This document shows positions 19,241-35,445 of a stretch of 35,623 nt of DNA, piece by piece. The DNA is from Methanoregula sp. GTDB taxonomy: Archaea > Halobacteriota > Methanomicrobia > Methanomicrobiales > Methanospirillaceae. The translations under genes and the position numbers were made by a program. The notes beneath the pieces are model-generated. The model was not told where the DNA came from, made no database searches, and was given only the letters and a program-made list of their open reading frames with translations. The stretch lies in assembly GCA_026394595.1 (NCBI GenBank), contig JAPKXX010000044.1:1-35623 (forward strand). Direction: 5' to 3'. The number at the start of each line of letters is the position of its first letter. Position 1 is the first letter of the stretch.

Positions 19241-19864
19241 TTAAAGAAGTTTTTCTACAGGGAAACCTGCACGCTTCCATGCCTGCATCCCTCCAAGCAT
19301 GTTGGTGATGTGATGGAACCGGTTCTTCGCAAGGTAGCTTGCCGCAAGGCTCCCCTTCCATCCTGCATCACAATAAACAACAATAGGTTCATTCCGTGGA
19401 ATTTCTGCTAGGGTTTTTGGTAATTCGCCCACATAGATATGGTGCGCCCCGTGAATGTATCCGATTTCGCGATAATTCCTGATGTCCCGTACATCGAGAA
19501 TGAACGGTGATTCTTCCTGCAAACGTTCCTTAAGCTGCTATACTGAACATGCGCCAATCATCCCGATTTCCTGCGCGCCTCTTGACCATATGGGAAATCC
19601 CCCGGCAAGGTAGCCAATAATATTGTCATACCCAAGCCGTACAAGACTCCGCACAACCGTTTCGAGCCCGAGATTGAAGTCATCGACAAGAATTATAGGT
19701 TGATCATAGGTTAGGAACCAGCCGGCAAAAGTAGGAATGCCATCCCGCCAGATCGAAAGGCTTTGTGGAATATGCCCTGCTGCAAAAGCAGTCGGAGACC
19801 TGATGTCAATCACCTGTGCACTTGTATTTATAAGGTCACGAACCTGTGCAATTCCCAATGGCAT
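19241..19864 (-). pseudogene. Tandem rhodanese-domain protein split by an in-frame TAG
   Basis: ...YLAGGFPIWSRGAQEIGMIGACSV TAG QLKERLQEESPFILDVRDIRNYREIGYIHGAHHIYVGELPKTLAEIPRNEPIVVYCDAGWKGSLAASYLAK. Both ORFs (19538-19864 and 19241-19522) are in one frame, interrupted only by the TAG at 19540-19538. Confidence 0.75.
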
Positions 19865-20147
19865 TACAGTCTTTCATTTAATTTGTATGGAATTTAACTC
19901 AATAGTGCGAACGGTTGAGTACTCGTAACACTATGGCACGTATCACCGTGGCACGGCATGTTCAATATTTTTTTTATTTAAACGGAATGTGGGGGATGTA
20001 AATGTATTAGGGGCAATTAGTGTTATTGTACAGTACACTACGCGAGGCTTTTTCAATCCAGACTCATTTTGCGGTTCTTTTCTATGCTATCTTTTTCGGT
20101 TTTTGCACAAACAATATACAGGCAACGCGCGCAGAATATTCACGTAT

Positions 20148-20462
20148 ATGAGTACCAGAACAGACACTGACAGAGCCAATGCAGGTATCTCCGGTGCCAA
20201 ACTGACAAAGGACGTGACCATCAAGGTGGATCCCGAGATGATCGTTCAATGCGAGACCGCTGGATTGTTTCACCGAGGACATCGAACAGCAACGTCACCG
20301 ACATTGTCGCAATGGTGTTACAACGAGATGGTGAAGGCAGCGGAAGAACAGAAGACAATACAGCTTATGAAAGAAATTGCAGCACTTGCAAAAAAGAACC
20401 GCGAAGACATACAGCTGGCAATATTCCTGCAGGAACAAAAAGAGAGAACGGATTTACCATAG
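20148..20462 (+). CDS. Small conserved-looking hypothetical protein (104 aa)
   Basis: MSTRTDTDRANAGISGAKLTKDVTIKVDPEMIVQCETAGLFHRGHRTATSPTLSQWCYNEMVKAAEEQ.... Polar C-terminal helix; the internal ATG at 20148 is a more plausible start than 19989. Confidence 0.5.
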   Translation: MSTRTDTDRANAGISGAKLTKDVTIKVDPEMIVQCETAGLFHRGHRTATSPTLSQWCYNEMVKAAEEQKTIQLMKEIAALAKKNREDIQLAIFLQEQKERTDLP

Positions 20463-20626
20463 AGCCGGTACAGAAGCAACAGACTCAACGGTAAACCTCA
20501 CCATTGCAATTCCTTAACCAGTTATAGCATATCATCCCAGATACCCCCATTGAAAGAACCCCCCCCCGTTTTATGATTGTGGGGCATCAGGAATGTTTTT
20601 AATATGCTGGATGGTAATACTCTTGC

Positions 20627-20755
20627 ATGGGATTCAAAGGAACCAAGAACCATTGTCAAGGTATCGCCAACAGATGCAAGCCACCGGTAATGAGCCGCCT
20701 CAAAACAATTTCAGGATTGATCCCGGTCGGCAGTTCAAGGCAGCGCGGGATATAG
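20627..20755 (+). CDS. Possible 42-aa small protein
   Basis: MGFKGTKNHCQGIANRCKPPVMSRLKTISGLIPVGSSRQRGI*. Basic, two Cys, not in the ORF track, no clear SD. Confidence 0.25.
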   Translation: MGFKGTKNHCQGIANRCKPPVMSRLKTISGLIPVGSSRQRGI

Positions 20756-20945
20756 ATCCTGACCAGGACTAATTGCAACCTTATTTTTATAAATTAAAAA
20801 TTTGTCAATGAATTGAAGCCCAACTGATGGATCTGGATGAAATTAATAATAGAAATCAACTAGGGATATGAACTTTTTAATTCATTCCTGTATCGGGAAT
20901 TGAACGCTTCCGCCGTATATAGGTTATGAAGCAGGAGTTGTTATC

Positions 20946-22295
20946 TCATTCACCGCGCATCAGGATGTTTTTTTGATTCGGATTCAATTGACGGTCTTTT
21001 ATAATATTATAGAGTTCGGACAGGCTCACCGGCTGGTATCTCACCACTTCCGCACTCACGTTAATCCGCCGTTTTTCAAAATTGATAAAGGGGTAGTCCG
21101 CAAGATCGTTGTTATGGTGATGCCCGTGGATCACCCATCCACTGAAATTGTCCGGGGCATCCGCGGGATTATGGATGAGCACAAAGCAATTTTCCTTATA
21201 CACCAGTGTCTCTGAATGTGTTTCTGCACTGGCACTCTCATCATGGTTGCCCTTGATCAGGGAAATCTTGCCATTCAACCGCTTGATGTATTCATATGGG
21301 CTCTTTGCATTCGGTCCATAACAAAGATCTCCGATATGGAAGACCCGGTCTTCTGGTTTTATCGTGTAATTCCAGTTTTTGATCAGCATCCGGTTCATCT
21401 CATCTACAGCGTCATGGGGGAACGGACGTGAACAGTACCGGATGATATTTGCGTGATCGAGATGGAGATCGGAAATGACAAAGATTTCAGGGTCATCTTT
21501 ATAATACGGATGAGTAAGTTCTATTGCGCTTTTTTTTCGGTACTTCTCTAAGGTTTTTTGCCATTCAAGGGCAGCATTGGTGATGCCTTGAGGGATCCAG
21601 TAATGTTGTATAAGGTCGTATTCTGCAATGATGGTGGCGCCTCTGACAATGGTGACTCGCAACCCATCCTCATTATAGAGGGGGTGCCGGGGCATTGTTT
21701 CACCACTACAATTTATTAATGACCTCAACGGGATATTCAGGTGAGAAGGAAATTCGGTCTTTTTTTCTGGGATCTGGGCGGGAATCTGTGACGGGTCCTT
21801 GAGGTATGCAAAAATCTGAATTGCTCTTGCACGGTCAAGCCTGTTGGCAATGGTAATATGGAACCATTTTTTGTGGGGGTCTTTATCCCACATATTGAAT
21901 GTTTCAGCAAGTTCGCCGACCGACGTTGCCACCGATTCTGTCAGGTCAGCAAGGGACCGCGTGGGAATGACCTTGTACGCTATAACCGCACCATTGAGCC
22001 CCTGATTCATATCATATCCATGGATCCGAAAAGGGATCGCGCCAAATGGTTTTGCAGCAGCTTCAACGGCTTTCATTAGGTCCTGAACGGGGATCTTATC
22101 TTTTAATGAAAATGGTCCAAAAAGTGTAATGTGTGGATGGTTTTCAACGAATTCTTCAATCCGAAACATCCGGACAATCTCGGCTATGATCTTTTTAATC
22201 CTCCATTTTGTTCTTCCCAGCCTAATCTCGACAAGGAACATATTCTCCGGAAATGTTTCAACCATGACAAAATTCCAGTGGAGTATTTTTTTCAA
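20946..22295 (-). CDS. Fusion protein: 2'-5' RNA ligase-like 2H phosphoesterase + calcineurin-like metallophosphoesterase
   Basis: Two HxTx motifs (HPHITLFGPF and WFHITIANR) in the N-terminal domain. C-terminal MPE motifs: VISDLHLDHANIIRYC, HIGDLCYG, LIKGNHDES, VIHGHHHN. Confidence 0.85.
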   Translation of the reverse strand: MKKILHWNFVMVETFPENMFLVEIRLGRTKWRIKKIIAEIVRMFRIEEFVENHPHITLFGPFSLKDKIPVQDLMKAVEAAAKPFGAIPFRIHGYDMNQGLNGAVIAYKVIPTRSLADLTESVATSVGELAETFNMWDKDPHKKWFHITIANRLDRARAIQIFAYLKDPSQIPAQIPEKKTEFPSHLNIPLRSLINCSGETMPRHPLYNEDGLRVTIVRGATIIAEYDLIQHYWIPQGITNAALEWQKTLEKYRKKSAIELTHPYYKDDPEIFVISDLHLDHANIIRYCSRPFPHDAVDEMNRMLIKNWNYTIKPEDRVFHIGDLCYGPNAKSPYEYIKRLNGKISLIKGNHDESASAETHSETLVYKENCFVLIHNPADAPDNFSGWVIHGHHHNNDLADYPFINFEKRRINVSAEVVRYQPVSLSELYNIIKDRQLNPNQKNILMRGE

Positions 22296-33186: not shown

Positions 33187-34488
33187 TTAAATAGAGAACT
33201 CCATCCCCACATATATCCACCTTAGCCAGTTCATTCCTGTGGATGCCCGCCTTTTTGCCGTAGTGTCATTCAAAGAAACATGACGCTGAATAACCGGAGC
33301 TAGCAGTTTGGAGTTTAGTGAAGAGATATCATGATTCTGATCAACGAAAATGCGGATGATCTCGTTAAAACTCGGTTTCCTAAGCATCTGTTTCAACAAT
33401 AAAAGGTTCCGTTGAGATCTATTAGGAGAATTCGCAATGAATTCACCTTCCCGGGTCAGTTCGAATTCCGAAGATCGGGGAGGGCCTCGTTTGAGCAACC
33501 CGAGATAAATCGCCGCGTTCGCATAGTAATCTCCCTGACGCTCATCAAAGTTAAAAAATTCTGCAATCGCAGTTTTGTTGGTGAGCTCTGCTGAGTGAAA
33601 ATTGGTGGCAATATCAATTATCTTATCGAGATCGTTTGCCTGCGGGTAGGGGACGTCAGGCTCATTTTCGATGGTGGTTATTTGCAGGAGCCGGTACAGA
33701 TTGATATGCTGTTTTACTGGCTCATTGACGGTAAAACATTTGCCCCTGACAAAATGTAGTTCCCCATATTCTTCTCCAAAAGCAAACTGGAGGATATAGA
33801 ACAGGCCATTGGTATACACGAAAAACAGGGGAACAATCTCTTTTGTTGATTTGCATGACCAGTCCTTGAACGGGTAATAGAGCTGCCGGATATTGAAATC
33901 CTCAACCCGGCCGAGTTTGGCTTCAAAGAGATAAATCTTATTTGGGCTTTCAAATCCGGCATCCACCTCAATCTGGACCCCGGACACTTCGACAGTCTGG
34001 TGATTTGCGGGAATTTTTACCGAGAAAGATTCTGATCTCTGTCTTCCGCGAATGGTGAGGAACAACTCTGTTTCGTTGGTGAATGTTTTGAGAAGAGATA
34101 CGAGGTTGGCAAAATCAATGGCCTGCGATTCGGAAGAGATTTTCCGCGCTTCGATGGTCTGGAACTCGCTGTAATCCCTTGTCGGATTGTATTCTTCTGG
34201 TGTGATATCTGAAAATAATTGTTCCAGTGAATAATAGGTCTGCGATGTTTCATCCCTGAAGATAACGTACTTCCCGTTCTCAACCGGAAGGATCGATAAC
34301 TTATTCCGTTTGAAAACTTCAGGACGGGAATTTTTCGTATCCTGTTTGGCTAGGAGCCGGGGTTCCCGTTTGTCACTTGCTTCCTTGATATCATCAGCGC
34401 TGACAAAAACAAATCCTTGTCGCTCAATATCCGCAAGAAGAGGAAGGCGTTCGAAGATCTTTTCCCACGCTTCATCATTTTGGGTCAT
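33187..34488 (-). CDS. Type II restriction endonuclease-like protein (PD-(D/E)XK) partnered with the adjacent methylase
   Basis: EVDAGFESPNKIYLFEAKLGRVEDFNIRQLYYPFKDW gives a D...ExK motif; adjacent to and co-oriented with a DNA adenine methylase. Confidence 0.7.
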   Translation of the reverse strand: MTQNDEAWEKIFERLPLLADIERQGFVFVSADDIKEASDKREPRLLAKQDTKNSRPEVFKRNKLSILPVENGKYVIFRDETSQTYYSLEQLFSDITPEEYNPTRDYSEFQTIEARKISSESQAIDFANLVSLLKTFTNETELFLTIRGRQRSESFSVKIPANHQTVEVSGVQIEVDAGFESPNKIYLFEAKLGRVEDFNIRQLYYPFKDWSCKSTKEIVPLFFVYTNGLFYILQFAFGEEYGELHFVRGKCFTVNEPVKQHINLYRLLQITTIENEPDVPYPQANDLDKIIDIATNFHSAELTNKTAIAEFFNFDERQGDYYANAAIYLGLLKRGPPRSSEFELTREGEFIANSPNRSQRNLLLLKQMLRKPSFNEIIRIFVDQNHDISSLNSKLLAPVIQRHVSLNDTTAKRRASTGMNWLRWIYVGMEFSI

Positions 34489-34500
34489 GAGAGAACACGA

Positions 34501-35445
34501 TCAGGTCTTAGTGAGACGATAATTTGTTATGATCAATTCGTTTATTTCCCCGCGACGGGCTCCGTTGCAGTTAATTATCCGCTTTGCGGGAACGCGTTCA
34601 ATCCGGTAATTCGAATAGAGATCATCAAAGAATGTGTCAGACGGATTCTCATTCCTAGGATCGGAATTGCTGAGCATGACTTTCGCGCCGATAGCATCGA
34701 GATCCTGATAGAATTTTGCCAGTCGTATCTGGTCGTTGTCTGTGAAACCATTCTTTGAATAATTGGTAAACGAAGCCGTCTCGCTCAGGGGCCGGTACGG
34801 TGGATCGAGATAAATGAATGTCTTTTTATTTATAAGCCGTCTGCATTTTGTGAAATCCCCCAGAATGATCTGCGTGGTTTTCAAGAGCGTGGCGACATCG
34901 TTCAGGTTATCTTCGTTCAGAATCTCGGGGTTTTTGTACCTGCCAAATGGTACGTTGAACTCCCCTTTCCGGTTGACACGGAACAGGCCGTTGTAACAGG
35001 TGCGGTTGAGGAAGATGATCTGGGCGGCGCGTTCAATCCAATCCATCTGGTATTTTTGGAAATTAATCTCCGTTTTTCTCTCGTTAAATGACCCCCGCAC
35101 TTCGTAAAAGAATGCTTCCCGTTTCTTATCATTTTTCGATATATACTCCGATTCAAGGGCTTCCAGTTCATTGATCAGTTTTTTCACTGATTTTTTAATG
35201 ACGCGGTACGACAGGATGAGTTCCTCATTGGCGTCACAGATGTAACAGTGTTCAAATGAAAATCTCTGGTTGAGATAAAAAAATACAGCTCCGCCGCCAA
35301 CGAACGGCTCAACATAGTTCGTGATTTTCCCTTTCTTCATTTCAGAGGGGAAACGTCTGGAAAACTCCCTGAGTAGCTGTGTCTTGCCACCTGCCCATTT
35401 CATGAAGGGTCTTGCATCAGGAACGAGTCTCTTCTGTTTTGCCAT
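34501..35445 (-). CDS. D12-class (Dam/DpnM-type) DNA adenine-specific methyltransferase
   Basis: PFMKWAGGKTQLLREFSRRFP; YVEPFVGGGAVFF; FLNRTCYNGLFRVNRKGEFNVPFG; FIYLDPPYRPLSETASFTNYSKNGF. Confidence 0.92.
   Translation of the reverse strand: MAKQKRLVPDARPFMKWAGGKTQLLREFSRRFPSEMKKGKITNYVEPFVGGGAVFFYLNQRFSFEHCYICDANEELILSYRVIKKSVKKLINELEALESEYISKNDKKREAFFYEVRGSFNERKTEINFQKYQMDWIERAAQIIFLNRTCYNGLFRVNRKGEFNVPFGRYKNPEILNEDNLNDVATLLKTTQIILGDFTKCRRLINKKTFIYLDPPYRPLSETASFTNYSKNGFTDNDQIRLAKFYQDLDAIGAKVMLSNSDPRNENPSDTFFDDLYSNYRIERVPAKRIINCNGARRGEINELIITNYRLTKT

Follow-up and report, generated by a model that had tools for sequence, protein, structure and literature searches.

The window, i.e. the whole stretch of 35,623 nucleotides analysed here, encodes a protein in which a 2H (LigT/CPDase-like) domain is fused to a calcineurin-like metallophosphoesterase (MPE) domain. 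Which chemistry, and which cellular process, would such a protein serve? 2',3'-cyclic phosphate ends come from many RNases, and their fate in archaea without KptA or Rnl3 is at issue. A putative fused phosphodiesterase-phosphatase found across a methanogen order, with variants lacking either site as a natural mutant set, would make this fate directly testable. The reading favoured here, tentatively and with somewhat less than even confidence, is that the protein may be a bifunctional cyclic phosphodiesterase and phosphatase that removes 2',3'-cyclic phosphates in RNA turnover or in the salvage of nucleotides; its substrate, the order of its steps and its cellular role are putative.

The gene is located on the minus strand (22295..20946). 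Its open frame of 449 aa starts with TTG at 22295 and stops at 20946; an alternative start, ATG at 22265, leads to 439 aa. The choice of the start is uncertain; the alignments of most relatives from the same genus begin at about residue 9-11 of the 449-aa frame. Translation of the plus strand of 20946-22295 gives many stops. The single intact 449-aa ORF described at these positions by the initial annotation is thus retained as an intact frame, with the strand specified as minus and the start left uncertain. The six motifs that it listed (HPHITLFGPF, WFHITIANR, DLHLDHAN, GDLCYG, KGNHD, HGHHH) are all found in the translation. The catalytic residues are kept in orthologues from the same genus and from Methanoregula whose overall identity is just 40-67%, which excludes a chance origin of the motifs. 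The fusion is not an assembly artefact, since the single polypeptide recurs across many independently assembled genomes; the claim that both domains are carried by one chain stands.

The 2H domain (aa 18-170 of 449; 21786..22244, minus strand, as all features of the gene) includes HxT motif 1 (H55-I-T57, 22125..22133) and HxT motif 2 (H146-I-T148, 21852..21860). Such a pair of HxT/S motifs, spaced by ~90 residues, characterizes the 2H superfamily; orthologues keep both. PF13563 (2_5_RNA_ligase2) matches aa 51-172 (Pfam search; 5.4e-12; 46.4 bits, curated cut-off 27). The score of PF02834 (LigT_PEase, canonical LigT/ThpR) is below its curated cut-off (12.4 vs 23.3 bits). The AlphaFold2 model of the fusion, built on an alignment of 55 sequences, has a pLDDT of 88.7 and a pTM of 0.87. 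Its N-terminal half (predicted strands and helices, 10-156) shows the two lobes of the 2H fold and matches, in a Foldseek search of the PDB (TM by target length), YjcG (0.77), human Usb1 (0.70), Arabidopsis CPDase (0.69) and E. coli LigT (~0.6). The structural match to the 2H fold by which the initial annotation proposed to check this half was thus found. In its modelled fold, this half most resembles enzymes of the cyclic-phosphate or 2'-5' type.

The 2H domain is followed by a variable, poorly conserved loop (aa 171-204, 21684..21785) that is predicted to be disordered (pLDDT mostly <50; ~165-190 in the numbering of the 439-aa form). Then come a conserved hairpin-plus-helix module (aa 208-259, 21519..21674; strands 196-217 and helix 231-245 of the model in 439 numbering) and the MPE domain. 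At ~220 alignment columns, the fold matches of the 2H half seem long enough to take in the hairpin beyond the loop. Stronger evidence is given by the profiles of three protein pieces: stand-alone 2H proteins end in the same module, so the hairpin is the C-terminal part of the 2H protein. Loop and hairpin are best regarded as parts of the 2H fold, the hairpin forming its end and the loop being inserted before it. The "short beta-rich linker" initially placed between the domains is therefore withdrawn.

The MPE domain (aa 271-440, 20976..21485) includes the complete set of metal-ligand motifs of calcineurin-like metallophosphoesterases: D-L-H (metal ligands, 21462..21470; conserved), G-D (21327..21332; conserved), G-N-H-D (21240..21251; Asn swapped in several fusions from Chloroflexota and Methanoperedens), His of IHNP (21171..21173; invariant in A1 and A3) and H-G-H (21120..21128; conserved). 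PF12850 (Metallophos_2) matches aa 271-399 above its curated cut-off (3.7e-6), the PHROGs search places this half in phrog_547 (2e-42), and its fold matches aq_1665 (PDB 1xm7, also by sequence) and VPS29. The NCBIfam search of the fusion gave sub-threshold matches only, e.g. PdeM (TIGR04123; 39.8 bits, cut-off 150). Profile matches and a confident AlphaFold model thus support both predicted folds. A 2H domain fused to an MPE domain in an archaeon, with both sets of active-site motifs intact, had been recognized from the first reading and is confirmed by Pfam, motifs and model.

Matches to the whole protein or to a part of it (E up to 1e-5; some cover one domain only) were found in 125 of the 232 genomes of the order, from 28 of its 40 genera. 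Among named records, full-length relatives are found chiefly in Methanoregula and other Methanoregulaceae. Outside the order, full fusions are found in Methanoperedens, Micrarchaeota, Diapherotrites, a MAG labelled Thaumarchaeota and MAGs of Dehalococcoidia/Chloroflexi (Chloroflexota); organism labels on MAG contigs may be wrong. The 2H-hairpin protein is also encoded by stand-alone genes and, in three loci (L201, L204, L208), by a gene that adjoins or overlaps an MPE frame. Such adjacent genes constitute a Rosetta-stone pattern for coupled function. In L201, the MPE gene beside the 2H gene is frameshifted; in L202, from the same lineage, a small MPE remnant is found, suggesting decay of the partner gene. 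A viral origin of the fusion was considered and rejected: the best 80 viral loci encode a stand-alone MPE only (80/80), and coverage of the fusion query stays below 80% in every phage record. The component domains are known; their fused architecture was not found in the literature searched, most subscription papers, including the founding 2H paper, being outside the reach of the search.

According to the favoured reading, the 2H domain would open a 2',3'-cyclic phosphate (RNA 3' end or small cyclic nucleotide) by two-histidine acid-base chemistry, leaving a 2'-phosphomonoester. The metal-dependent MPE, held beside it, would then remove the 2'-phosphate and leave a 2',3'-diol. In the order, this would most likely serve to unblock ends so that RNA can be turned over or nucleotides salvaged, rather than to make ends ready for ligation. 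In the motif columns of 106 distinct fusions, both sites are intact in 70, the 2H site is lost and the MPE intact in 24, the 2H is intact and an MPE ligand changed in 11, and both are changed in 1. In the 2H-dead fusions, segments read directly show the PHITLFGP-type motifs replaced. On the MPE side, GNHD is changed to GRHD, GKHD, GSHD or GWHD in fusions from Chloroflexota and to GSHD in Methanoperedens; in L035 and L063, the MPE looks broadly decayed. Neither active site is altered in the window's genus or among the Methanoregula orthologues sampled, with the exception of one orthologue in which Tyr replaces the His of DLH. The tree of the hairpin-MPE part (quick method, many weak branches) implies ~4 changes of the 2H state and ~8 of the MPE state, with 2H loss confined to a few clades. 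With the 2H histidines gone from 24 of the 106 fusions and an MPE residue altered in 11 others, the two activities are separable in evolution and not obligately coupled, which speaks against the favoured reading. So does the very broad range of substrates on which MPE domains act. Reciprocal decay as an avoidance of double loss was also considered; it is suggestive, not significant (70/24/11/1, Fisher p = 0.29).

These losses also bear on the main alternative, itself rather unlikely: the MPE would be the working phosphodiesterase or phosphatase (acting on RNA, nucleotide or another phosphoester), and the 2H domain would chiefly bind or position the substrate, being an active enzyme in part of the lineages and a pseudoenzyme in the rest. 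2H domains of the AKAP18 type are proposed binding or positioning modules. The 24 fusions that keep the MPE motifs without the HxT histidines agree with this alternative, as does their grouping in a few clades instead of scattered recent decay. The model of one of them (L157) retains the 2H topology, and its N-terminal half matches Usb1, CPDase and AKAP18; however, its alignment also contained 2H-intact relatives. The full conservation of the 2H motifs in the window's genus and in Methanoregula, and the eleven fusions that show the reverse state, argue against it. A broader proposal is rather doubtful: the fusions may form an undescribed, widely conserved archaeal family that would convert 2',3'-cyclic phosphate ends to diols in one chain, and in which whole lineages would have switched off one site (the 2H site in some, the MPE site in others). 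Two catalytic steps would thereby have been reduced repeatedly to one, the silenced domain serving for binding.

The gene content of the genomes indicates which pathways could use the product. Rnl3 RNA ligase (TIGR01209) and KptA (PF01885) were each found in 0 of the 232 genomes of the order, with positive controls in place for Rnl3 and positive control genomes for KptA; KptA is found in 177 of 394 genomes of the phylum sample. Of the 21 genomes examined (the window's genome and its relatives), 20 have RtcB and all have a separate ThpR-like gene. With RtcB and ThpR present and Rnl3 and KptA absent, the fusion has no obvious use in ligation after healing or on KptA-derived ADP-ribose cyclic phosphate; since RtcB is present and Rnl3 and KptA are absent, turnover or salvage seems likelier than healing for ligation. 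Four fusion genomes outside the order encode KptA (G239, G261, G526 and, broken in pieces, G296). The fusion as a replacement for KptA was rejected, because these four genomes, the ones checked outside the order, have KptA and the order lacks it with or without the fusion.

The neighbours of the fusion are lineage-specific metabolic genes, which lend the favoured reading no RNA context, and conserved RNA-repair neighbours were not seen. They include an MBL-rhodanese gene (the window's genus and Methanoregula), an acyl-CoA-synthetase-like gene (one family) and an HcyBio-like gene (others); these names were assigned by eye. A conserved operon was rejected, since neighbours vary by lineage and an RNA-related pattern is absent. 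In Methanoregula, the neighbourhoods are stable and housekeeping-like. In relatives, the MBL-fold plus rhodanese gene lies 65-93 bp downstream of the fusion. In the window, the match is limited to its rhodanese half (19241-19864, minus strand; residues 250-457 at 19867-19244) and contains an in-frame stop. In place of the absent MBL half, 19865-20945 holds unrelated DNA with a plus-strand ORF (19989-20462) without Pfam match. Further away (33187-35445, minus strand), a DNA adenine methylase-like gene lies beside a 433-aa gene, a possible restriction partner (by eye). In Diapherotrites, the fusion is immediately preceded by AbiEi-like and AbiEii genes (AbiE-type toxin-antitoxin), with overlaps of one base (L146, 808-3742; L156, 260-2472). 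In Methanoperedens (L124, 2985-5269), genes encoding a nucleotidyltransferase and a HepT-like RNase and a 103-aa ORF of unknown function are found just upstream of a fusion whose GNHD is GSHD. Toxin-type neighbours in two lineages are too few for an argument.

RNA repair, the reading first proposed, in which 2',3'-cyclic phosphate ends would be healed to 3'-OH for sealing by an RNA ligase, is improbable. The chemistry of the domains is compatible with it, and the toxin-type genes of Diapherotrites (L146) and Methanoperedens (L124) may act on RNA; but Rnl3, the ATP-dependent RNA ligase family searched for and a would-be user of healed ends, is absent from the 232 genomes of the order, RtcB uses 2',3'-cyclic phosphate directly, and a kinase or ligase partner was not seen among recurrent neighbours. 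Coupled phosphate processing, the other component of this two-step RNA-end enzyme, is still plausible, the halves being encoded by adjacent or overlapping frames in several genomes. Its repair and obligate two-step components are weakened by the gene content and neighbourhoods described above and by the loss of the 2H histidines in about one quarter of the distinct fusions and the alteration of the MPE site in one tenth.

That the fusion breaks down a cyclic or 2'-5' oligonucleotide serving as a signal, or acts in defence in some other way, is more improbable still. Some phage 2H enzymes degrade such signals, and the fusion lies beside toxin-antitoxin genes in two lineages; however, the defence-system search (PADLOC) gave zero matches, the Methanoregula neighbourhoods are of the stable type, and the best 80 viral loci hold no fusion of this kind, nor does any phage record reach 80% coverage of the query. 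Least probable is an ADP-ribose pathway in which the 2H domain would open ADP-ribose 1'',2''-cyclic phosphate derived from KptA/Tpt1 and the MPE would take off the phosphate. In its favour, one of the best fold matches is Arabidopsis CPDase, KptA occurs in the four fusion genomes outside the order and a Nudix gene adjoins the fusion in L155, but the order that holds most of the fusions found has no KptA.

The enzyme proposed here, a bifunctional phosphodiesterase-phosphatase for turnover or salvage, may be compared with several known systems. YjcG-type 2H proteins (PF13563; PDB 2d4g) resemble it in sequence, fold and both HxT motifs, and the fold match suggests that the likeness reaches the C-terminal hairpin; unlike the fusion, they are stand-alone and without MPE. 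ThpR/LigT 2'-5' RNA ligases (PF02834) have the 2H fold and HxT motifs in common with the fusion, which scores below the PF02834 cut-off in a genome that encodes a separate ThpR-like gene. Small phage and bacterial metallophosphoesterases (phrog_547; aq_1665) match the MPE half strongly, but are stand-alone frames of ~160-270 aa without 2H. Bacterial Pnkp uses an MPE-fold phosphatase and 2',3'-cyclic phosphodiesterase. The analogy with Pnkp drawn by the initial annotation goes no further than this fold: the fusion has no kinase or ligase domain and carries a 2H domain instead, 2H and MPE being the only families above cut-off. UBASH3/STS-1 and STS-2 also combine a 2H-type esterase domain and a phosphatase domain in one chain (PMC10252698); in contrast to the fusion, they are animal signalling proteins with a PGM-fold phosphatase and with UBA and SH3 domains.
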